The translations under genes and the position numbers were made by a program. Positions 2,614 to 12,048 of a DNA stretch of 12,048 nt are shown here, piece by piece (the first letter of the stretch is position 1; each line of letters opens with the position of its first letter). The stretch comes from an uncultured Clostridia bacterium. Lineage in GTDB: Bacteria > Bacillota > Clostridia > Oscillospirales > Ruminococcaceae. The stretch covers positions 1 to 12,048 of the forward strand of contig CAMGJS010000016.1 in assembly GCA_946056455.1 (NCBI GenBank), given 5' to 3'. The notes under the pieces are model-generated. The model was not told the origin of the DNA and made no database searches. It saw only the letters and a program-made list of their open reading frames with translations.

Positions 2614-5082
2614 TTATCCTGCCGTTACTTCTACATCTACAGTAATGTTGACTTGTTGTGTATTTCCGATAATATTTGTGAGTACCGTTCCGACAGTTGC
2701 ATCAGAAGAAACTGTTTCTCCGTTTACTTTGTATGATGTTACAGTACCAGTTCCGATATTAACATTATCATTGAACAGATCTCCGATAGTTTCATAATAC
2801 TCGGCACCATATACTGGTACTGAGTCGCTTGTACTACTACCATTACCATATCCGAGGTCGATCGTCAAGTTGAATGTGACATTATAAGTCAAAGCTTCCT
2901 GCTTGACGGTGAGCATTTCACTTATTGAAAATACAGTATCCTCATCTACAGCGGTGTAACTGCTGTTTACCCATCCTATTGCTTCACAAAAATCGTCTGC
3001 GTCAGGGGTAGGAAATGTCAATCCGTTTTGGTCAAAGGAAGTGTTTTCGGGAATTGTGTAACTCGTTGTTGTTCCGTTTGCAAAGTTAAATGTTATTTTG
3101 ACCATATAGCATAAATTAAGCGTACCATATGAACTATACGGATAGTCTGAAGGTATAACCGTTGAAGCAGTAAATGCCGTCTCTCCGCCGTCTGTGCTCC
3201 ATACTCCTATACATCCCGATTTTGCGGGAATATCGGGAACATCTAAACCAAAATCAGAAAGAGAATACCCCTTTGCACATGTTCTGGTATAACTATCACT
3301 ATCAGATAAGAATGTTATCGTGATTGTTTCTGCGCTTACTTCCTTGACTGTAACAGCTCCCGTCACTACAGTTGAGGCGGTTATCTCGGTATCATCTTCA
3401 AAAACCCAGCCTATTCTTGTATAGCCGCCCAGTTCCGGTCTAGGCCATTTGGAGTTGAGTATAGAGAGAAATTCCGTGTCTTTTTCTGCTGTAAAGCCTG
3501 ACACTCCTCCTCCTGTCAGGTTAACGGTGATATCATAAGCTTCAACAGCTGTATATGTAACGCTGTCACCGTAAAGTCTCTTGTCGTAAGTACCCACATA
3601 ACCTGCACTTTCATATACATCCGTATCATTCAGTCTCCACCTGTTGTTTCCCGTTGTGGGAGTGGGAAGAGTATATGTTCCTCTGTCCTCTATATTATTT
3701 ATTGTGTTTATTATGGTTCCGTCATTATTCTTTAATATCACCTGATATGTTTTAACCTCTGTAAATGTAACGCTGTCGCCGTAACTTGCGTTATAGGTAA
3801 ATATATATCCTGCGTCATAATACGAACCATCATATTTCCACCTGTTTCCCGTCGGAGGAGAGGGAAGAGTATATGTATCTCCGTCCTCCATATCTATTGT
3901 GTCTATTATGGTTCCACCACTATTCTTTAATATCAACTTATATGTTTCAACAGCGGGTTCCTCAGGTGTTGATGGAGTTGAAGGGGTTGAAGACTTTTTC
4001 GTTGTAGTTTCCGTCGTTTCCGAAGTTTCTTCTGTTGTGGTTTCTGTGGGGACAGTTGTTTCAACCGTTGTAACTGTTGTTTCTTCGGGAACGGTTGTTT
4101 CTTCGGTCGTTGTTTCTTCGGGGTATATAACCTCTGTGGGAACGGTAGTAACTTCAGTTTCAGCTGTCGGCTCTGTTACGGGGGCGGTGGTTGTTTCCGT
4201 CGTAGTTTCAGCCGTTGTTTCCTCGGGCTCTTCTTCTCCCCTTAGCTTTCTGATAACGGTATCGTTAAGAAGCATAAGGTTTTCATCGTTGGAGCGTATT
4301 GCATTGCCTCTCAGCGAATCGGGGATATTGTCATAATTGATATTGTGCAAGGGGCTTTCATCTTCCCCGACAGGAACAAGACTGCCGTCCTCGCCTTCTT
4401 TTACAAATGACGATGTTCCGTCCTCATCGGCAGGATTTCCGCTTGTTGCGTCAGGCTCTGTGAGGATAGTTACGCTCGTATCGGGGGTAACAAGTGCGGT
4501 GTTGCCCGTGGGGTTACCGTCCTTGTCAAGAAGTTCTACTTCAACCTTACCCTGCAAGGTGCTTTCTGTGGTAATAAACGAGCCGTCCGACTGTTCCTCA
4601 ACAGATACAATGAAGCTTGTTCCTCTTACCGCCATTGTGGACTTCGGCGTTGATACTTCGTATGATGAATTTGCCGAAAGCGGATTTGTAAGCTCGTTGA
4701 GAATTGTTCCTTGTTTGAGGTTTATCACCGTTCTGCTGTCCGATGAACTGCCCGTTGCGGTGAGCTCAAGAACAGTTCCGCCGTCAAGAAGAACATACTT
4801 GTCGCTGTCCATTGAAATTCGCAGAGTGCTGTCATCTCCGACAACAAGAGTATCTCCGCTTTCAAGGTTCATTCCCACATAAGCGTCAAGGTCGCCTGTA
4901 CCGGCTCTTGTAACAACGGCTTCACCCGTCATTTCAAAAACCTTGATTACTCTGTATGCTTCCTCTTTGGTGAGAGTGACGCCAAGTACCGCGCCTACTC
5001 CGCCCACTACCGCAACGGTAGCACAGATAATAATTATCTTTGTTTTTAGTGCCATAGCAGAAATTATTGATTTAATACCCAA
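2614..5082 (-). CDS. Membrane-anchored FecR-domain surface protein with Thr/Glu-rich stalk and C-terminal beta repeats
   Basis: An 822-residue predicted extracytoplasmic protein. Residues 1-14 are short and basic. Residues 15-36 form one hydrophobic helix, likely an uncleaved N-terminal anchor. Residues about 45-205 form a FecR-type domain: GDTLVVGDDSTLRI (76-89) and the signature STPKSTMAVRGTSFIV (144-159). Residues about 283-378 are a low-complexity Thr/Glu/Pro/Ser stalk. From 381 on come about six beta-rich modules of 65-85 residues, most opening with a YxhxLxN or hxITFxF strand and somewhat like InlB/Listeria-Bacteroides-type repeats; the first two (381-444 and 446-514) are close copies. 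There is no LPxTG, choline-binding or S-layer motif. The start is TTG at 5082, fixed by GGAGG 8 nt upstream; the internal ATG at codon 10 lacks a site. The role is likely adhesion or envelope sensing (inference). No sigma/anti-sigma or TonB partner is present, so a classical FecR iron role is unlikely. Its leader carries a c-di-GMP riboswitch. Confidence 0.85.
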   Translation of the reverse strand: MGIKSIISAMALKTKIIIICATVAVVGGVGAVLGVTLTKEEAYRVIKVFEMTGEAVVTRAGTGDLDAYVGMNLESGDTLVVGDDSTLRISMDSDKYVLLDGGTVLELTATGSSSDSRTVINLKQGTILNELTNPLSANSSYEVSTPKSTMAVRGTSFIVSVEEQSDGSFITTESTLQGKVEVELLDKDGNPTGNTALVTPDTSVTILTEPDATSGNPADEDGTSSFVKEGEDGSLVPVGEDESPLHNINYDNIPDSLRGNAIRSNDENLMLLNDTVIRKLRGEEEPEETTAETTTETTTAPVTEPTAETEVTTVPTEVIYPEETTTEETTVPEETTVTTVETTVPTETTTEETSETTETTTKKSSTPSTPSTPEEPAVETYKLILKNSGGTIIDTIDMEDGDTYTLPSPPTGNRWKYDGSYYDAGYIFTYNASYGDSVTFTEVKTYQVILKNNDGTIINTINNIEDRGTYTLPTPTTGNNRWRLNDTDVYESAGYVGTYDKRLYGDSVTYTAVEAYDITVNLTGGGVSGFTAEKDTEFLSILNSKWPRPELGGYTRIGWVFEDDTEITASTVVTGAVTVKEVSAETITITFLSDSDSYTRTCAKGYSLSDFGLDVPDIPAKSGCIGVWSTDGGETAFTASTVIPSDYPYSSYGTLNLCYMVKITFNFANGTTTSYTIPENTSFDQNGLTFPTPDADDFCEAIGWVNSSYTAVDEDTVFSISEMLTVKQEALTYNVTFNLTIDLGYGNGSSTSDSVPVYGAEYYETIGDLFNDNVNIGTGTVTSYKVNGETVSSDATVGTVLTNIIGNTQQVNITVDVEVTAG
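3541..3942 (-). repeat. Tandem duplication of a ~65-residue module in the surface protein
   Basis: Unit 1 is 3942-3751 (residues 381-444) and unit 2 is 3747-3541 (residues 446-514). The shared protein pattern is YxxILKNxxGTIIxTI, then TYTLPxPxTGNxRW, then YGDSVTxTxV. The DNA is also close: GTAACGCTGTC and GGGAAGAGTATATGT occur in both units, as does TATTCTTTAATATCA. This implies fairly recent duplication rather than only fold similarity. The units differ by small in-frame insertions, mainly in the middle. The later modules (residue 516 on) have diverged much further. Confidence 0.8.
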
Positions 5083-5095
5083 TCAAACCGCCTCC
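5080..5095 (-). promoter_or_regulatory. Ribosome binding site and UUG start of the surface-protein gene
   Basis: On the minus strand GGAGG (5095-5091) lies 8 nt before TTG (5082-5080). This is ideal spacing, whereas the first in-frame ATG (codon 10) has no purine-rich site. The site lies just downstream of the riboswitch terminator hairpin, so translation depends on read-through of that hairpin. Confidence 0.8.
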
Positions 5096-5107
5096 GTTTA
5101 TCATAAT

Positions 5108-5141
5108 AAAAAAAGGAGCTGACGACCGAAGCCGCACACTC
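5108..5141 (-). terminator. Terminator hairpin of the riboswitch expression platform
   Basis: Minus-strand arms GAGTGTGCGGC (5141-5131) and GTCGTCAGCTC (5126-5116) flank a TTCG tetraloop. Nine of eleven positions pair, including three G-T wobbles, with a 2-nt internal mismatch. A run of seven T (5114-5108) follows. It lies directly after the aptamer and before the start codon, as expected for transcriptional attenuation. The 3' arm contains CAGCTC (5121-5116), which can instead pair with GGGCTG (5167-5162) inside the conserved 3' part of the aptamer (five Watson-Crick pairs plus one G-U). Ligand-bound aptamer would then free the terminator arm to form the hairpin, so an OFF switch is predicted (inference). 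Confidence 0.72.
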
Positions 5142-5147
5142 GGGACA

Positions 5148-5257
5148 ACGCCCTACAAATGCAGCCCGACCGCCATACTCCCGAAAAGTTCAGAAAGTTT
5201 AGGCTCACGCTTTGCGCCACCGATTTTCATCGGCTTTGCCTTTTATTTGTTAGGCGT
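5148..5257 (-). promoter_or_regulatory. Cyclic di-GMP-I (GEMM-I) riboswitch aptamer
   Basis: Read on the minus strand, the leader has the GEMM-I elements in order. GGCAAAGCC (5240-5232) runs into hairpin CCGAT-GAAA-ATCGG (5233-5220) with its GAAA tetraloop. Next come GCGCAAAGC (5217-5209), matching the invariant ACGCAAAGC, and GCCTAAA (5204-5198). A variable stem follows, then TATGGCGGTCGGGCTGC (5177-5161), corresponding to the family's tetraloop-receptor segment. The ends pair: ACGCCTAACAAAT (5257-5245) with ATTTGTAGGGCGT (5160-5148), 13 positions with one mismatch and one wobble. Departures from consensus as I remember it are GCC at the end of GGCAAAGCC where ACC is usual, and GC-A at the 3' end where GCC is usual. 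The family binds c-di-GMP. The related GEMM-Ib variant, specific for cGAMP, differs at about one ligand-contact base and cannot be excluded by eye. Confidence 0.86.
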
Positions 5258-5286
5258 ATTATAACATATATAAAATATATTTGCAA
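5258..5286 (-). promoter_or_regulatory. SigA promoter of the riboswitch / surface-protein transcript
   Basis: On the minus strand the -35 box is TTGCAA (5286-5281, 4/6) and the -10 box is TATAAT (5263-5258, 6/6), with a 17-bp spacer. The predicted start near 5251 lies immediately at the aptamer. The transcript would therefore include the ACAAAT/ATTTGT part of the closing stem but probably not all of the outer GC-rich part. The surface-protein gene thus has its own transcription unit, separate from the upstream operon. Confidence 0.72.
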
Positions 5287-5349
5287 TACTAAATTAACAA
5301 TTTTGTCACATTTACGAAAATATCAGCCAAATATAGCCATTTTAAAGGC

Positions 5350-5390
5350 AAAAAGAACAATGCTAAACTAATATATTATCATAGTAAAGC
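5350..5390 (-). terminator. Weak candidate terminator after the TIM-barrel gene
   Basis: GCTTTACTA (5390-5382) and TAGTTTAGC (5370-5362) pair at seven of nine positions around an 11-nt A/T loop. Five T (5354-5350) follow on the minus strand after a 7-nt gap. It overlaps the last codons of the gene ending at 5392. The stem is AT-rich and interrupted, so termination here is doubtful and read-through into the riboswitch leader is possible. The rest of the stretch up to the promoter at 5286 shows nothing else recognisable. Confidence 0.25.
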
Positions 5391-5391
5391 A

Positions 5392-6168
5392 CTATATCAG
5401 CCCTAAGTTTGCAAGAAATTCAGCCGAACGCTTCTGATTTTCTATGGACGAGGTTTCTATAAGCACCGATTCTGCCTCCGACAATTCGTTTTCAAAATGT
5501 GATTTGAACTTGTTCCAGTCAATTTTTCCGTCGCCGACAGCGAGGTGAAGGTCGTTTACAAGGTCGTTGTCGTTTATGTGCATATGCTTGACAAAGGGCG
5601 CAACGCTCTTTACCCAGCCGTCAATGTCCGAGCCGTATATCACCGCGTGGGCGTAATCAAAGCATATCCCGAAATTTTTCATATCCGAAAGCCTTTTTGC
5701 AAGTGTCGTGAGCATATCGGGCGAGGTATCAAACATATTCTCCATATAAATATTAAGTTCGGGATATTCTGAAAGCGCTTTTCTGAAAAATTCTTCGTTG
5801 CAGTCAAGCCAGTTTTCAACATAAGACTTCGCCGTTAAGGACGGGTTGTGGTTTGTGTGGAACACAACTCCTTTTGCTCCGATTTTTCGGGCAATGTCAA
5901 GGCTTGTGCATACCCTTTCTTCCGAAACGGCACGGATTTTTTTGTCGCTGCTGAAAATGGTGACATCAAAGAACGCTCCGTGCATTGTGCAGTATTCGGG
6001 CAGTCTGTACGACTTATATCCGCCGATAATTTCTTCCGTCAGCTCGGGATTATCCATAACATCGGGGATAAAAAAGTCGTTGTACTCAAAGCCGAGGTCA
6101 TATTTTTTTGAAAGGGCAAGACTTTCCGTTATATTATCACGCGCGGGAATTATAAGAAACTTACTCAT
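5392..6168 (-). CDS. TIM-barrel sugar phosphate isomerase/epimerase-like protein (AP_endonuc_2 superfamily)
   Basis: A 258-residue soluble protein of the xylose isomerase-like TIM-barrel family. The expected metal-site residues are visible at strand ends: His63 in MHGAFFDVT, His104 in GVVFHTNHNP, Glu143 in IYMENMFD, Asp171 and His174 in FDYAHA, His197 and Asp200 in KHMHIND, His208 in DLHLAVGDGKIDW, and Glu238 in VLIETSS. The catalytic metal site therefore looks intact. Family members isomerise or epimerise sugars or inositols, or act on DNA abasic sites. The short length and the HLAVGDGKIDW signature favour sugar chemistry, but the substrate is unknown. The start is ATG at 6168, with GGAGG (6182-6178) 9 nt upstream. 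The frame could open 20 codons earlier, but those codons lie inside the cyclase gene and lack a site. It overlaps the cyclase stop by 8 nt (ATGAGTAA), so the two are translationally coupled. Confidence 0.88.
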   Translation of the reverse strand: MSKFLIIPARDNITESLALSKKYDLGFEYNDFFIPDVMDNPELTEEIIGGYKSYRLPEYCTMHGAFFDVTIFSSDKKIRAVSEERVCTSLDIARKIGAKGVVFHTNHNPSLTAKSYVENWLDCNEEFFRKALSEYPELNIYMENMFDTSPDMLTTLAKRLSDMKNFGICFDYAHAVIYGSDIDGWVKSVAPFVKHMHINDNDLVNDLHLAVGDGKIDWNKFKSHFENELSEAESVLIETSSIENQKRSAEFLANLGLI

Positions 6169-7975
6169 TGACAAGCTCCTCCGTTTTCTCTGTTGTTTCC
6201 TCGTTAAGTCCTGTAAGAGAGTATACAAAAACGCCCTTTGATTTTCCCTTCAAGGGAATTTCTCCTATGGGTTCAACGGTAATTCTGTCCTTGACTTTAA
6301 GATAAACGCTCTCACTGATAAGCACCTGTCCCCTCTTGGCGTTAGCTTCAAGTCGCGCGGCGGTGTTTACTGTATCTCCTATGGCGGTATAGTCCATTCT
6401 GAAATCGCAACCGATATTTCCCACAACGGCGGGACCGCAGTTCACTCCCACTCCGAATGCAACGGACTTTCCGTATTTTTCAAGGAACTTGCTCTCTATT
6501 GCGTTTCCTCCGCTGACAATATCCCACGCGGTCTTGACGGCTCTGTAAATATAATCGTCAAGGTCAAAGGGCGCGTTGAATACCGCCATAGTAGCGTCAC
6601 CGATGAATTTGTCAAGCGTTCCTCCGTTGCTGAAAATCGCGTTTGTGGTGAGGTTTAAATAGCTGTTTAAGATGTCGACTACCTCTTCGGGTTCAAGGCT
6701 CTCTGACATAGGCGTAAAGCCTCTTATATCGACAAAAAGAACGGCGACATCGCGGTTTTCTCCACCAAGCTTTATATGATAGTTGCCCGATTTTGCGATT
6801 TCTTCAACAACCTGCGGAGCAACATATTTTTTGAACGCGGCGGTGATTTTTCTCTTTTCTGCGGCTTGTTCGGCATATTTTCTCACAAGGTTTACAAGAT
6901 AGCAGACAATCGCACAAAGCGGAGCGTAAAGGAGCGGAAAAGCCGTTCCTGCGTTGAAAAGAAGTATCCCCGAAACAACGCAGCCTGCCGCTATGACTAT
7001 AACAACGGGGGTTGAAATCTTTATTGCAAGCTTTTTAGAAAGAAGATAAACAGCGCAGGCGATAAATGCAACAACAAGCGCAGATACCACTCTGTCTGCG
7101 GGGGCGGAGCTTCTTCCGTCAAGAAGTCCCTGAACGATATTTGCGTGAATTTCCGCTCCATACATCTGGTCGGCGGAGTTCGGAACGGCAAACTGATCCT
7201 GAAGTCCGGGGGTGTACGCTCCGATGATAACTATACAATCCTTGAAAATTCTTGCGTCAACCTTGCCGTCAACAATATCGCAGAGAGAAATATACTCATA
7301 GTCATAAGGTCTGCCTGCGTAAGATATCCACATTCTTCCGTTGTCGTCAAGCGCGGGGAGAGTTTCTTCCGTTCCCGTCACTTCGCAGTATTTTGAATAA
7401 ATCTGTGACGCAAAGCTTTTATATGTAACGCCGTTCCATTCCTCCGTCAGCATTGTAGAGCGTACTATTCCGTCGTCGTCTGGGGCGGCGTTGACAAACC
7501 CCGTCTTTGCACAATCCGCAATGATAGGTTGCTCTATCGACTCAACATTGAAATGGTCTATGTACGGCTTGCCGTTTTCATCTGTTTTATAGACGGAGTT
7601 GTAATTCACAAATGCGCCCGAAACTACTCTGTTATTCTCTTCACAAGCTTTTCTGAGAGCCTCGTCGCCCTCTTTGTCCATATCGCCGAAAATCATAATG
7701 TCCATTGCGATAACGGCAGGGCTGTCGCTGAGCTTTTCAATAACATCGGCATAAACTCCCCTCGACCATGTTCCGAAGGGACCTATCTCCTGCAATGTTC
7801 TGTCGTCTATTGCAATTATTTTGATTTTATTGTTTATTCCGCGGGGACTCTGATATATCTTATCCTGCAAAAGACTGTCGAATGAATAGAAAACATCAAA
7901 AAAGGTAATTGAAAATGCAAGAACAAACACAAGGACAGTCTCAATAAGAGTCATTAATTTTGGTTTATTTTTCAT
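6161..7975 (-). CDS. CHASE2-domain class III (IIIb-type) adenylate cyclase
   Basis: A 604-residue membrane cyclase predicted to make cAMP from ATP in response to an extracellular cue. TM1 is about 11-30. The extracytoplasmic CHASE2 domain (about 34-290) shows IKIIAIDDRTL, GTWSRGVYADVIEKL, AMDIMIFGD, GIVRSTML, ISYAGRP and the closing MYGAEIHANIVQGLL. Three TM helices follow (about 295-313, 321-341, 344-363), then a cytoplasmic linker (FKKYVAPQVVEEI) and the cyclase domain (about 405-590). Catalytic residues are complete: metal ligands Asp416 (FVDIRGF) and Asp460, adenine-specifying Lys456 (LDKFIGD) and Thr530, and transition-state Asn537 and Arg541 (VNTAAR). Thr at the second base-recognition position is the class IIIb pattern, known in cyanobacterial cyclases as bicarbonate-responsive. 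A guanylate cyclase would lack this Lys. The ATG at 7975 follows a GGGGG-containing site 7 nt upstream. It is first in an operon with the overlapping TIM-barrel gene and divergent from the diguanylate cyclase. Confidence 0.92.
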   Translation of the reverse strand: MKNKPKLMTLIETVLVFVLAFSITFFDVFYSFDSLLQDKIYQSPRGINNKIKIIAIDDRTLQEIGPFGTWSRGVYADVIEKLSDSPAVIAMDIMIFGDMDKEGDEALRKACEENNRVVSGAFVNYNSVYKTDENGKPYIDHFNVESIEQPIIADCAKTGFVNAAPDDDGIVRSTMLTEEWNGVTYKSFASQIYSKYCEVTGTEETLPALDDNGRMWISYAGRPYDYEYISLCDIVDGKVDARIFKDCIVIIGAYTPGLQDQFAVPNSADQMYGAEIHANIVQGLLDGRSSAPADRVVSALVVAFIACAVYLLSKKLAIKISTPVVIVIAAGCVVSGILLFNAGTAFPLLYAPLCAIVCYLVNLVRKYAEQAAEKRKITAAFKKYVAPQVVEEIAKSGNYHIKLGGENRDVAVLFVDIRGFTPMSESLEPEEVVDILNSYLNLTTNAIFSNGGTLDKFIGDATMAVFNAPFDLDDYIYRAVKTAWDIVSGGNAIESKFLEKYGKSVAFGVGVNCGPAVVGNIGCDFRMDYTAIGDTVNTAARLEANAKRGQVLISESVYLKVKDRITVEPIGEIPLKGKSKGVFVYSLTGLNEETTEKTEELVNE

Positions 7976-8006
7976 TGCCGTTCCCCCGTTTCAAATTTTA
8001 AGTATA

Positions 8007-8035
8007 ATTATATCACAATATTTTTTTCTTGTCAC
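8007..8035 (-). promoter_or_regulatory. SigA promoter of the adenylate cyclase operon
   Basis: Minus-strand -35 GTGACA (8035-8030, 5/6) and -10 TATAAT (8012-8007, 6/6) with a 17-bp spacer. The start is expected near 8000, giving a leader of about 25 nt. No riboswitch or CRP-like palindrome was found in the leader or intergenic region. Confidence 0.78.
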
Positions 8036-8074
8036 TAATTTATGAAATCTTTATTAAAATTTTTGCAAATAATG

Positions 8075-8103
8075 TTTACAACATCGGCAAATTATGCTAT
8101 ACT
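8075..8103 (+). promoter_or_regulatory. SigA promoter of the diguanylate cyclase gene
   Basis: Plus-strand -35 TTTACA (8075-8080, 5/6) and -10 TATACT (8098-8103, 5/6) with a 17-bp spacer. The start is expected near 8110, about 38 nt before the ATG. The two -35 boxes of the divergent pair are 39 bp apart, close enough for a shared regulator. The ribosome binding site is AAAGGA at 8131-8136. Confidence 0.72.
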
Positions 8104-8147
8104 TATGTAAATCTATTTAAATATAATATGAAAGGATAGTTGCATTT

Positions 8148-9176
8148 ATGGGTAACGCGGTTTCTTCCGATGTTCTGCTTGAACAGATTTTCAGCATAAC
8201 ACAGAATCTTTATAAAGAGATTTCAACCCCCGATAACGATACCGAAGACGACCACAACAAAATATACAGGCTTCTTACCGACCTTGGCAGAACGCTTGTC
8301 AACGCGGACAGAGCAAGCTTCTGGAAGTGGGACAAGAGAAATCACTCGTTGTGGACAACTGCCGCTGTCGGCGCAGGAAGAATAACTATCCCCGAAGGCA
8401 CCGGGCTTGTGGGAAAAGCGCTCACAGAAAGGCGCGCCATTGTCACAAACGACCCGTACAACAACCCCGATTTCAACTCTGATGTCGACAAGAAAACGGG
8501 ATATGTGACAAAGTCGATACTCGTTATGCCCATTTCAAACTGCAAGGGTGAATTCATCGGCGCTTATCAGGCGATAAACAAGCTTGACGGCGAAGGCTTC
8601 GACCTTGAAGAAGATGTAAAGCGCCTTTCTCTTGCGGCGTTTATCTGCGGAATAACCCTTGAATCTGACAGCTTCCTTGACGATTCCCGTCACGACAAGC
8701 TCACCGAGCTTAAAAACAGAATGGGCTTTTACAGCGACTACACCAAGATTTTTGAAAAAATCCTCACCGATACCGAAAAGGACAGATGCGTTTCGCTCTT
8801 TATCTGTGACATCGACCATTTCAAAAAGGTCAACGATACATACGGTCACAACGCAGGCGACGCTGTTCTCAAACATGTCGCTGAGCATTTCCGCATAAAT
8901 TCCCGTATATGCGACGGCGTTTACAGATGGGGCGGAGAGGAATTCATCGTCGTTCTGCCCGACACGGACATTACTCAGGCGGCTGACGCGGCAGATAGGC
9001 TGAGAGTATGCATAATGGAGTCTGTCTGTCATTTTGAAGAGCTTGACATCAAGGTGACTATGAGCTTCGGCGTTACTCAGCTTGATATGTCAAAGTCCAT
9101 TGAGGATAATATCAAGGACGCTGACGAAAAGCTCTATAAAGCAAAAGAGGGCGGAAGAAACAGAGTTATCGTGTAA
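8148..9176 (+). CDS. Cytosolic GAF-GGDEF diguanylate cyclase
   Basis: A 342-residue protein without membrane segments or signal peptide, predicted to condense two GTP into c-di-GMP. An N-terminal helical region (1-37) precedes a GAF domain (about 38-172) containing PEGTGLVGKALTERR, IVTNDPYNN and ILVMPI. The segment AINKLDGEGFDLEED (142-156) resembles the NKFDE motif (Asn144, Lys145, Phe151, Glu155/Asp156) of cyclic-nucleotide-binding GAFs, although ordinary GAFs often carry something similar. The GGDEF domain (about 180-342) starts at DKLTELKNR and has CDIDHFKKVNDTYGHNAGD. The active loop is GGEEF (262-266), a functional variant. An RxxD product-inhibition site, RICD (253-256), stands exactly five residues before it, and the domain ends in DEKLYKAKEGGRNRV. 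Active enzyme with feedback inhibition is expected. The ATG at 8148 has AAAGGA 11 nt upstream. It is transcribed divergently from the adenylate cyclase and ends at a bidirectional terminator. Confidence 0.94.
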   Translation: MGNAVSSDVLLEQIFSITQNLYKEISTPDNDTEDDHNKIYRLLTDLGRTLVNADRASFWKWDKRNHSLWTTAAVGAGRITIPEGTGLVGKALTERRAIVTNDPYNNPDFNSDVDKKTGYVTKSILVMPISNCKGEFIGAYQAINKLDGEGFDLEEDVKRLSLAAFICGITLESDSFLDDSRHDKLTELKNRMGFYSDYTKIFEKILTDTEKDRCVSLFICDIDHFKKVNDTYGHNAGDAVLKHVAEHFRINSRICDGVYRWGGEEFIVVLPDTDITQAADAADRLRVCIMESVCHFEELDIKVTMSFGVTQLDMSKSIEDNIKDADEKLYKAKEGGRNRVIV

Positions 9177-9227: not shown

Positions 9228-12048
9228 TTATTTTCCAAACACGCCCTGCAAAGCGTCTATTACCTCGTCCATATTGATAGGCTTTGAGATAAATCCGTTC
9301 ATTCCGCAATTTTCGGCATTCCTGCGGTCTTCGTCAAAGGCGTTTGCGGTCATCGCAACAACGGGAATATGCGCAAGCTTTTTGTTTTTAAGCGCTCTTA
9401 TCTGCTTTGTCGCCTCATAACCGTCCATAACGGGCATCTGAATGTCCATAAGAATAAGGTCAAAGTCCCCTGCCTCTGAGGATGATATTCTGTCAACCGC
9501 TTCCTTTCCGTTTTCGGCGGTGTCAACTTCAAAGCCGTAGCCTTTGAGTATCTCGACGGCGATTTCCATATTAAGCTCGTTATCCTCGACAAGAAGAATA
9601 TGCTTGCCCTTAAAGCTCTTGTTATTCTCAAGTGACGGCATAATCTGCTGCTCTTCGGCTTTTTTCTGCCCAAGAGCCGTCAGCAGCGACTCCCGAAGGT
9701 CCGACATAAACATAGGCTTTGAGCAGAACGCGGTCACTCCCGCCGCTCTCGCTTCTTCCTCTATATCGTCCCAGTCGTATGCGGTGAGGATTATTATAGG
9801 AGTATTGTCCCCAAGACTTCTTATCCGCCTTGTAACTTCAATTCCGTTCATATCGGGCAGTCGCCAGTCGATAATATAAGCGTGGAATGCGTCGTTCATT
9901 TCAATCGACTGCTTTGCGCGAAGGACAGCTTCTTTTCCGAACATTGTCCACTCGGAGCGCATTCCGACCTGAGCAAGCATCTTTGTAACGCTGTCGCAGG
10001 TGTCAAAATCATCGTCCACAACAAGCGCTTTAAGACCTGACAGCTCGGCAATTTTTTCAACGCTTCTGCGCTCGGATTGCAGGCGGAGAGTAAGATTTAT
10101 GACAAACTCCGTTCCCTTGCCCTGCTCGGTGATGACTTCTATCGTTCCGCCCATCATATCAATGATGTTCTTGGAAATAGCCATTCCCAGACCTGTTCCC
10201 TGAATTTTGCTTACCGTCGAGGTGCGTTCACGCTCAAAAGGCTCGAATATACGCTCGGCAAATTCCTTGCTCATACCGATACCCGTGTCCTTTACCCGTA
10301 TCTCGTATATTCCCTTGCCCTCGGGCGCGTTATGTATCTGCGTAACTCTTACGGAAACCGTTCCGCCCGGTGCCGTGAACTTGACAGCGTTTGACAGAAG
10401 GTTTAAAAGCACCTGATTTATTCTTGTCTTGTCGCAGAAGACATTTTCATCGGTGACATCCATAACATCCATATAAAGTTCAAGCTGTTTTGCGTGAATT
10501 TGTCCGCCGATTATTGTCTTTATATCGTGAAGCATATCGGAAAGATTTGCCTCGACCTCTTCAAGCTGAATTTTTCCGCTCTCTATTCGGCTCATATCAA
10601 GAATATCGTTTATGAGCGAAAGCAGATGATTACTTGATGAAAGTATCTTTGAAAGATAATCCTTTACCTTTTCGGGATTGTCAACATTTGCCGTTGCAAG
10701 GGTTGCAAATCCGATGACAGCGTTCATAGGCGTTCTTATATCGTGGGACATATTTGAAAGGAAGGTGCTCTTTGACTTGTTAGCACTAATCGCCATATTA
10801 ACGGCGTCTTCAAGCTCTTCGTTTATCTTCTTGTCCTTTGTTCTGTCTGAAAGAACGAGGATATATTTCTTTTCGCCCTGAATTTCTCTGCAAAGGGCGG
10901 TAACATGGAACCAGCGCCGTTCACCCGTTTCCTGATGAATATATTCCCTGCTCCATTCCGCCTGCTCGCCCGAGGCGATATCGGGGAGCTGGTCGAGGAC
11001 AAAAACTGTATTCTTATCCGAAACAAGTCGGTCGACAATGCGGATATTTTCCCGCACTTTCTCTTCGGATATTCCCACAAGCTTTTCAACATTCGGGCTT
11101 ACATAGTCAACACGGAAATCCTCTGCGTCAAGCATCATAAAAATATCGTCGACATTGTTTGAAAGGGTTGAGAACAATTCCTCGCGATAGAGGATTTCGG
11201 TGTCCTTCTTTGAAAGATTTCTGCGGTAACGCACAAAGGCAATAACCGCAAGCAAAACAACAACAGCCACTGCAATTGCCGTCACCATAAGCATAGTGCT
11301 TGACTGCAAAGCGTTCATACTGGAATTGACAATGCTTGTGGGGATAACTCCGAGTACTGTCCAGTTTTCAAAACCCACAGCCTCATAAACAAGATAATAG
11401 CTTGTATCGCCCACGGTAAATGTGGTAACGCCCGAACGCTTCTGCTCAAAGTCGTCTTTGAGAGCTTCTATTTCTTCTCCGCTCATATCGGAATAATCTT
11501 TGAGCATAGCCACAAAGTTGTGTATCTGTTTTGCTGACGGTTGAGCGTTGTCGATAATTACTCTGCCGTCGGGGTGAATGACATAGCTTGTCGATTGTCC
11601 GTCAAATGCTGAAATATCAAGCGTTTCAACAAGGTCCGAGTTATTGAAGCTTATTGCAATGGCTTCATAATCAAAGCCCTGATAGCTGTTTTTGTATGCA
11701 GGAACGGCAAACACCATTATCTCAGGCTGACCGGGAACAACGGATGATACCGCAATGTCCTTCTTTTCAAGAATAAGCTCGGGCAATTTGGTTTTAAGGT
11801 CAAGATACCCCGTCTTTCCGTCGGCGATGAGGTATCCTCCCTCCCGTGAGATAAAGTAGAAATCGGTAAAGCCCGCTTCCTTTTGCATACTTTTAACATA
11901 CGACCTGACAAGCTTGTCGTTGTTTATATCACGGAGATAGGGCGTCCACATACGCAATGTCCGCCAGTTCTTTCCGACAAGATTATCAAGCGACTGGTTT
12001 GACTGATGATAAATTTCCGTCAGGTGAGCGGAGCTTTCCTCGAAAATC
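9228..12048 (-). CDS. Large hybrid histidine kinase: extracellular sensor - TM - PAS - HisKA - HATPase_c - REC - REC (N-terminus outside the window)
   Basis: The frame is open to the right edge, with 939 residues visible. A TTG at 11957 is not needed as a start, since the reading continues through 30 sensible codons to 12047. Numbering from the first visible residue, the extracytoplasmic region (about 1-247) looks like a double-Cache-type sensor, with ISREGGYLIADGKTGYLDL and YVIHPDGRVIIDNAQ. A TM helix lies at about 250-272, and the preceding N-terminal TM must lie outside. A PAS domain (about 291-401) follows. HisKA has MSHDIRTP with His435. The ATPase has LLNLLSNAVKF, KDTGIGM and GTGLGM. 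REC1 (about 672-790) has acidic Asp678-680, Asp727 and Lys777. REC2 (about 815-938) has Glu821/Asp822, phospho-acceptor Asp868 and Lys922. There is no HPt, so phosphate must pass to a separate HPt protein or the receivers act as sinks or switches. It is convergent with the diguanylate cyclase. Confidence 0.93.
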   Translation of the reverse strand, partial: IFEESSAHLTEIYHQSNQSLDNLVGKNWRTLRMWTPYLRDINNDKLVRSYVKSMQKEAGFTDFYFISREGGYLIADGKTGYLDLKTKLPELILEKKDIAVSSVVPGQPEIMVFAVPAYKNSYQGFDYEAIAISFNNSDLVETLDISAFDGQSTSYVIHPDGRVIIDNAQPSAKQIHNFVAMLKDYSDMSGEEIEALKDDFEQKRSGVTTFTVGDTSYYLVYEAVGFENWTVLGVIPTSIVNSSMNALQSSTMLMVTAIAVAVVVLLAVIAFVRYRRNLSKKDTEILYREELFSTLSNNVDDIFMMLDAEDFRVDYVSPNVEKLVGISEEKVRENIRIVDRLVSDKNTVFVLDQLPDIASGEQAEWSREYIHQETGERRWFHVTALCREIQGEKKYILVLSDRTKDKKINEELEDAVNMAISANKSKSTFLSNMSHDIRTPMNAVIGFATLATANVDNPEKVKDYLSKILSSSNHLLSLINDILDMSRIESGKIQLEEVEANLSDMLHDIKTIIGGQIHAKQLELYMDVMDVTDENVFCDKTRINQVLLNLLSNAVKFTAPGGTVSVRVTQIHNAPEGKGIYEIRVKDTGIGMSKEFAERIFEPFERERTSTVSKIQGTGLGMAISKNIIDMMGGTIEVITEQGKGTEFVINLTLRLQSERRSVEKIAELSGLKALVVDDDFDTCDSVTKMLAQVGMRSEWTMFGKEAVLRAKQSIEMNDAFHAYIIDWRLPDMNGIEVTRRIRSLGDNTPIIILTAYDWDDIEEEARAAGVTAFCSKPMFMSDLRESLLTALGQKKAEEQQIMPSLENNKSFKGKHILLVEDNELNMEIAVEILKGYGFEVDTAENGKEAVDRISSSEAGDFDLILMDIQMPVMDGYEATKQIRALKNKKLAHIPVVAMTANAFDEDRRNAENCGMNGFISKPINMDEVIDALQGVFGK

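Follow-up and report, generated by a model that had tools for sequence, protein, structure and literature searches.

The window analysed here is a 12,048-base stretch of DNA, the whole of contig CAMGJS010000016.1 from an uncultured gut clostridial bacterium of the Ruminococcaceae (assembly GCA_946056455.1; 1.33 Mb in 244 contigs, estimated to be 74% complete). It carries a class I riboswitch for cyclic di-guanosine monophosphate (c-di-GMP) in the leader of a gene for a FecR-domain protein of the cell envelope, and a divergently transcribed gene for a GAF-GGDEF enzyme. Pfam matches place a TIM-barrel gene and a gene with a CHASE2 domain and a class III nucleotide cyclase domain between the two. 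On balance we favour, with moderate confidence, the reading that this is a module with two messengers: the GAF-GGDEF enzyme would contribute to feeding an antitermination ON switch of the FecR gene, whose product is a probable partner of CHASE2. Computational analysis of the window and its relatives establishes the aptamer, a mutually exclusive expression platform with covariation, the enzyme motifs and a conserved linkage. In the proposed mechanism, the 3′ half of the ligand-free aptamer would be drawn into a long terminator hairpin before a U-tract and transcription would stop, while with c-di-GMP the aptamer would retain that strand and the polymerase would read through into the FecR gene. 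The CHASE2-cyclase, the TIM barrel, the FecR protein and the divergent GAF-GGDEF enzyme would together form the conserved module, in which the latter would probably be one c-di-GMP source for the riboswitch. A preliminary description of this DNA had described the aptamer and the enzyme, and both were borne out; the CHASE2-cyclase and TIM-barrel genes, the expression platform and the sign of the switch were absent from it.

A cmscan search of the whole window returned RF01051 as the sole Rfam match above its cut-off (E = 4.7e-09; untruncated, covering all of model positions 1-87), after removal of two overlapping same-clan matches with lower scores; one sub-threshold small-RNA model was the other match listed at E ≤ 1. 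This covariance-model check had been suggested in the preliminary description, which had placed a c-di-GMP-I aptamer in the FecR leader, and its significant outcome (56.3 bits against a gathering score of 35), together with the presence of the conserved blocks, agrees with that assignment. A genome-wide search found no second RF01051 aptamer elsewhere in the partial genome. Model position 11, which we take to be the equivalent of Vc2 G20, is a G; the CGCAAAGC block is intact, as is the TGCATTT end with its C92 equivalent. We compared 17 leaders, those of the window and of 16 loci from other species, in all of which the aptamer stands upstream of a FecR-type gene and is linked to an orthologous GAF-GGDEF gene. 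The specificity G is kept in 16 of them, including the window (L119 has A); the CGCAAAGC block, the C92 equivalent and a GAAA tetraloop are kept in all 17, and the tetraloop receptor pattern, CCUAA/UAUGG in the window, is found in 15 including the window and is absent in L137 and L139. Judged by these features, the element is a c-di-GMP-I aptamer with predicted binding of c-di-GMP; a specificity for cyclic GMP-AMP (cGAMP) is unsupported, the specificity position being G. According to one report, an A at this position lets a c-di-GMP-I riboswitch bind cGAMP (PMC7288161). Such an A is present in an orthologous riboswitch from another genus (L054:9926-9834, the same contig as L119), where the linked GGDEF enzyme is canonical.

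The long hairpin of the expression platform begins with the receptor stem's 3′ strand and extends as far as the U-tract. Ensemble folding without constraints pairs the 4 nucleotides (nt) that immediately precede the U-tract to the aptamer in all 17 leaders (mean probability 0.75-1.00) and to no downstream sequence. In 13 of the 17 the aptamer-platform interaction is stronger than in 95% or more of the shuffles. Covariation was counted on 15 aligned leaders; L128 and L139 were excluded because their platforms differ, and they nonetheless fold an aptamer-consuming hairpin. In this set 95.3% of the cells of the long hairpin are paired and 8 pairs are changed on both sides, values matched by 0/500 shuffles for pairing, 0/500 for the covariation score, 1/500 for both-side changes and 114/500 for further pair types. 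When the hairpin is slid along the alignment, pairing falls to 43-53%, a comparison biased towards the unslid structure, since that structure was derived from the same alignment. Some results weigh against this picture: the interaction in the window itself is equalled by 48/200 shuffles, three further leaders likewise fail at the 5% level (L139, 83/200; L144, 17/200; L141, 16/200), and a simple terminator scan, which allows only loops of 3-8, flags neither the long hairpin nor the short one discussed below. Subtraction of computed fold energies favours the aptamer-consuming fold over the aptamer plus a separate downstream fold by 5.7 (the window, the smallest value) to 18.6 kcal/mol among the 17 leaders, and with so large a preference the outcome is probably set by kinetics while the RNA is being transcribed. 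Because the terminator consumes the 3′ half of the aptamer, ligand-free RNA should terminate and c-di-GMP should promote read-through; that is, c-di-GMP is predicted to switch the FecR gene ON by antitermination. A comparable ON switch is the Bc2 RNA of Bacillus thuringiensis, which controls the collagen adhesion gene cap (PMC4933901): it likewise couples a c-di-GMP-I aptamer to a terminator in the ligand-free state, read-through in the bound state and a surface protein as output. The output there is of another family, and the accessible portion of that report mentions no linked diguanylate cyclase or cyclase.

The gene under this control matches the Pfam FecR domain with 32.6 bits against a cut-off of 24; its TTG start lies 74 nt from the aptamer, and the hydrophobic character of its N-terminal stretch was judged by eye. 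At the other end of the leader, the −10 element of the promoter-like site ends 7 nt 5′ of the aptamer. The consensus scan of positions 5000-8250 gave 16 sites against a shuffle mean of 5.5, and TATAAT occurs no more than 30 nt upstream of the aptamer in 14/17 leaders. The distance that separates the TIM-barrel stop from the FecR start was measured in 14 of the 17 riboswitch loci (L114 and L128 are without one of the two matches, and those of L146 lie on opposite strands). It is 226-331 nt in 12 of the 14, the outliers being L144 (501 nt, unsure) and L139 (4084 nt), and 12-32 nt in eight loci without the riboswitch. These distances point to two architectures: without the riboswitch FecR follows closely as the next gene in the cyclase operon, and with it FecR apparently forms a unit apart that has its own promoter. 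The L144 locus looks degraded or misassembled, with no open frame longer than 100 amino acids near the riboswitch and with overlapping GAF-GGDEF and FecR matches.

The arrangement recurs among relatives. Within a comparison set of 149 relatives that includes the genome of the window, 7 have a GAF-GGDEF orthologue (E ≤ 1e-60), in every case about 0.4-3.1 kb from a FecR gene; 4 of these have the riboswitch (G000, G002, G004, G007), and it was not found in the other orthologue genomes, G001, G003 and G005. RF01051 itself occurs in 41/149. Starting from the riboswitch, 50 stretches around it other than the window were compared; they cover part of the RF01051 matches, were not chosen by GAF-GGDEF, and in 30 cases extend no more than about 1.5 kb to either side. 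A FecR homologue lies beside the riboswitch in 3 of them, as in the window, and the same 3 hold the GAF-GGDEF gene. For the larger set, genome contigs were scanned with the GAF alignment (best 80 of 209 loci), and a covariance model from 24 aptamers gave 20 strong matches and 1 weak one over 88 sources, leaving 17 riboswitch loci, the window among them, after removal of three duplicate contigs and the weak match. That match (L138; 21 bits, E = 0.013) was set aside as chance, as it lies about 10 kb from a FecR gene and has no CGCAAAGC block. As the riboswitch loci were selected through the GAF domain, the presence of GAF-GGDEF is built in and the recurrence of riboswitch and FecR is not, with the exception that four of the 17 aptamers entered the model. 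The next gene has the same anchor and FecR-type N-terminus in 16/17, including L114, which has no Pfam FecR match and was counted after visual inspection of its N-terminus; in L144 FecR is matched, and no intact frame lies nearby. The GAF-GGDEF gene remains linked despite loss or displacement of the intervening genes (L128), a 4 kb insertion (L139), an inversion (L146) and a reordering (L141).

A rapidly built protein tree of 48 GAF-GGDEF sequences, which came with a long-branch warning, has 32 rows in which FecR is in view, 17 of them with the riboswitch and 15 lacking it; among these rows, its presence and absence require 5 or more changes. Setting the riboswitch against all other rows, including 12 unknown and 4 without FecR, requires 11 changes. 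Four loci (L121, L123, L127 and L132) gave no FecR match and no riboswitch match either. One gain followed by several losses would fit this distribution.

The 8148-9176 product is, from its sequence, a predicted diguanylate cyclase with canonical motifs. It carries RICD-GVYRW-GGEEF and NDTYGHNAGD; GGEEF and NDTYGHNAGD are kept in 7/7 aligned orthologues, as is the inhibitory-site RxxD five residues before the loop, which several more distant homologues lack. An Asp stands at the position that selects between c-di-GMP synthesis and Hypr activity (GTP selectivity), and its retention in all seven led us to rule out a cGAMP-making Hypr GGDEF enzyme. The predicted structure (mean predicted local distance difference test score 85.5, predicted template modelling score 0.52) and Foldseek agree with a GAF plus a GGDEF domain, and neither discriminates between GAF ligands. 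Pfam domains, motifs and distances are all in line with the preliminary description, which had placed a GAF-GGDEF enzyme with intact GGEEF loop and I-site about 2.9 kb from the riboswitch.

The neighbouring CHASE2 protein has the catalytic motifs DIRGF, LDKFIGD, MDYTAIGD and VNTAARLE, to which we assign, as an assumption, the metal-binding Asp residues, the purine-recognising Lys and the Asn/Arg motif, and its cyclase domain matches CyaB (3r5g) at 1.2e-32. It is thus classed as a class III cyclase, with predicted adenylate cyclase activity, and may be the input side of the module. In a survey of the 7 orthologue genomes that covered class III cyclases only, each genome has one match, and each match is at a CHASE2 match. 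CHASE2 occurs in 14/149 relatives. A FecR homologue is present in 16 genomes, to which these 14 all belong, and every one of the 7 genomes with a GAF-GGDEF orthologue is among the 14. G000 and G004 have a second CHASE2 gene that adjoins a second FecR gene and has an HD-GYP-type domain in place of the cyclase, so that the domain attached in CHASE2-FecR pairs is in one case a cyclase and in the other of the c-di-GMP-hydrolase type. The FecR protein is probably an extracytoplasmic partner of the CHASE2 sensor, and by acting on it would close a loop. In these second pairs, which lie at L102:2911-4938 and 1851-2906 (contig C91 of the window genome) and at L103:1136-3208 and 108-1187 (a sister genome), the genes overlap or abut, and HHE...GYP can be read in the CHASE2 gene of L102. 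CHASE2-cyclase genes also adjoin FecR-domain genes in Campylobacterota (PMC9239204). The likeness lies in a CHASE2-adenylate cyclase next to a FecR-domain protein; the clusters described there carry a phosphodiesterase for cyclic adenosine monophosphate (cAMP) and a TPR protein, whereas the window has the GAF-GGDEF enzyme, the TIM barrel and the FecR riboswitch.

Any cAMP made by this cyclase may act on the GAF domain of its neighbour. A profile of the 7 orthologous GAFs, compared with the PDB, gave its lowest E-value for the GAFs of CyaB2 with cAMP (1ykd, 4.8e-27, summed over two GAFs). CyaB2 contacts cAMP through R291, T293, I308, D356 and N359 (PMC4411481); a hand mapping from the profile alignment places R55, S57, A72, D114 and T117 of the window enzyme at these positions, so that two contacts are kept, one is conservatively replaced and two are changed. 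Whereas CyaB2 has tandem GAFs on a cyclase, the window enzyme has a single GAF on a GGDEF domain. A likeness in architecture is Lcd1 of Leptospira, a GAF-GGDEF diguanylate cyclase whose activity is reported to be raised by GAF-bound cAMP (da Costa Vasconcelos 2017, as cited in PMC6717892 and PMC5932348); the window enzyme differs in having a cyclase gene adjacent. The GAF belongs by sequence to a kind that includes domains binding cAMP or cyclic guanosine monophosphate, it most likely responds to a small molecule, and cAMP is a plausible ligand and the leading candidate.

We nevertheless lean slightly towards the alternative in which the GAF binds a ligand other than cAMP or only dimerises, and the two cyclases do not act in series. 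The best single-domain GAF match shown is the HD-GYP protein 4mcw (94.6 bits), followed by PDE5 (60.4 bits) and GAFb of CyaB2 (58.6 bits), with the PDE6, PDE10 and PDE2 GAFs lower in the table, and with the single window GAF as query 4mcw is again slightly ahead of 1ykd (86.6 vs 85 bits). The 4mcw GAF is likewise attached to a c-di-GMP enzyme, one with an HD-GYP output in place of GGDEF; to our knowledge the protein is not known as a cAMP receptor, and we know of no ligand of its GAF. The changes of I308 to A and N359 to T count on the same side, as do the NKFDE motif (NK-Xn-F-X3-DE), which is only partly matched (NKLDGEGF-DLE-ED, final two residues swapped), and the best full-length fold match in Foldseek, the GAF-GGDEF protein Dcsbis. 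Yet R55, S57, D114 and T117 are invariant in 80/80 homologues, S57 lying inside one of two search patterns, and a CHASE2-cyclase lies on the same stretch in 36 of the 43 loci where 4 kb or more flanks the enzyme gene on each side; where a CHASE2-cyclase is present (60 loci), the median gap to the GAF-GGDEF gene is 230 nt. In the full relay, an extracytoplasmic signal would act on the CHASE2 cyclase, cAMP would stimulate the divergent GAF-GGDEF enzyme, its c-di-GMP would turn the riboswitch ON, and the FecR protein so produced would act in turn on CHASE2. We think this closed loop rather unlikely in its entirety, and a little less likely than we would otherwise have put it, because the closest single GAF is that of 4mcw and the window genome has one match to the CRP-type cNMP_binding domain. 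Two further genomes of the 7 have one such match each; in the other 4, three of them at least 91% complete, no cNMP_binding domain was found, which speaks for the favoured two-messenger reading. In G002 the cyclase sits elsewhere in the genome, which counts against that reading.

Whether or not cAMP is its ligand, the GAF-GGDEF enzyme has competitors as a c-di-GMP source. Partial as it is, the window genome yields 12 GGDEF matches that pass the cut-off, along with 7 EAL domains, so that other enzymes could set the c-di-GMP level seen by the riboswitch, and the chance of a GGDEF gene within a few kilobases of the riboswitch in this genome is about 6% (an estimate from 12 matches in 1.33 Mb), which makes the window alone weak evidence. 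Moreover, the cluster occurs without the riboswitch in other species (8 measured loci), so the linkage of the enzyme is independent of the riboswitch. It is therefore a possibility, although one we find less probable than local supply, that the riboswitch senses the whole c-di-GMP pool and that the adjacent enzyme merely marks a CHASE2-cyclase signalling cluster; against this, the riboswitch-FecR unit and the enzyme remain close where the intervening genes have been lost, moved or inverted, in the four rearranged loci given above. The local c-di-GMP circuit proposed in the preliminary description is partly supported, and this recurring linkage, kept after rearrangements, gives it a firmer basis than the window by itself; the local enzyme is probably one source, other GGDEF and EAL domains being present in the genome, and adhesion is a possible output.

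The prediction of an ON switch was weighed against the opposite sign. c-di-GMP-I OFF switches exist, and the short UUCG-loop hairpin by the U-tract offers a candidate terminator: nucleotides just ahead of the U-tract still pair locally with a probability of 0.02-0.76 once the aptamer is sequestered, and in the window, which has the highest value (last-4 pairing 0.76), and in some relatives the short hairpin can adjoin the U-tract, which weighs against a clean ON switch and means that bound-state read-through may be partial. An OFF switch, in which the bound aptamer frees this hairpin and a ligand-free antiterminator blocks it, is nonetheless improbable, since pairing in the short hairpin reaches only 76.5% of cells in the 15 aligned leaders, which is shuffle level, the ligand-free ensemble already pairs the pre-U-tract bases to the aptamer, so that that state terminates, and there is little short terminator in L146 (last-4 pairing 0.02) or L128 (downstream energy −3.3 kcal/mol). 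An OFF model drawn from inspection of the UUCG hairpin was dropped after the leader folding and the covariation tests of both hairpins.

Table 1. Features of the window, with the basis of each assignment
Feature	Coordinates	Strand	Basis or remark
c-di-GMP-I riboswitch aptamer (RF01051), G at specificity position	5157..5250	-	56.3 bits, cut-off 35
Long terminator hairpin, 5′ arm = aptamer 3′ half; mutually exclusive with aptamer	5114..5182	-	minimum-energy fold, covariation
U-tract (7 U) of intrinsic terminator	5108..5114	-	sequence
Short hairpin, UUCG loop; can form when aptamer holds its 3′ half	5116..5141	-	covariation not above shuffles
Promoter-like site of riboswitch-FecR transcript (TTGCAA, 17 nt, TATAAT; TG preceding)	5258..5286	-	consensus scan
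Gene under predicted riboswitch control: hydrophobic anchor at the N-terminus, FecR domain, C-terminal part rich in Thr and repeat-like	2614..5082	-	822 amino acids, TTG start after GGAGG
GAF-GGDEF diguanylate cyclase (predicted), divergent from cyclase gene	8148..9176	+	Pfam GAF 46 bits, GGDEF 134.3 bits
Promoter-like site of GAF-GGDEF gene (TTTACA-17-TATACT)	8075..8103	+	consensus scan
CHASE2 and class III nucleotide cyclase, the genome's only PF00211 match	6161..7975	-	PF00211 88.5 bits
Promoter-like site of CHASE2-cyclase gene (GTGACA-17-TATAAT)	8007..8035	-	consensus scan
Xylose-isomerase-like TIM-barrel gene	5392..6168	-	Pfam AP_endonuc_2 71.7 bits
Hybrid histidine kinases flanking the module	212-2470 and 9228-12047	- (both)	HisKA-HATPase-receiver

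The start of the TIM-barrel gene in Table 1 was inferred, the open reading frame extending to 6228. Of the two flanking kinases, one has a weak Hpt match and the other a weak dCache match and two receivers; in contig L053 of a sister genome, the kinase at 9228-12047 has a 98% identical match beside the module and the kinase at 212-2470 only a distant match. Among more distant, mostly Lachnospiraceae-titled stretches (L155-L192), the GAF-GGDEF gene in many cases lies near a CHASE2-cyclase gene, on either side and in either orientation, and no riboswitch match was found there, a hint that the link between enzyme and cyclase may predate the riboswitch. G035 has 10 c-di-GMP-I riboswitch matches, several as adjacent tandem pairs or triplets, and adjacent matches also occur in G031, G052, G064, G089, G116 and G121. 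In L024 a different GGDEF-type frame (819-1445) lies no more than about 100 nt from a c-di-GMP-I riboswitch match, an unrelated case of such pairing.

We found no description of the whole combination in a literature search, and no literature joining a riboswitch, c-di-GMP and FecR; most subscription journals lay outside that search, so this absence is unproven. The parts are of known kinds, and it is their arrangement that appears to be new, in which the relay from cAMP through c-di-GMP to a riboswitch may be the interesting step. Species offer a natural comparison here, since sister species have the same gene with and without the riboswitch, and L119 has an A at the specificity position. Whether and how Firmicutes use cAMP is described as an open question in one source (PMC5217690). 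The cluster is a candidate pathway in this respect, with a cyclase, a possible receptor, a second-messenger relay, an RNA reader and an output side by side. If the proposed relay is correct, then in those relatives where a single class III cyclase but no CRP-type domain was detected, the receptor for cAMP would be a diguanylate cyclase, through which a cAMP signal would end in control of a riboswitch.

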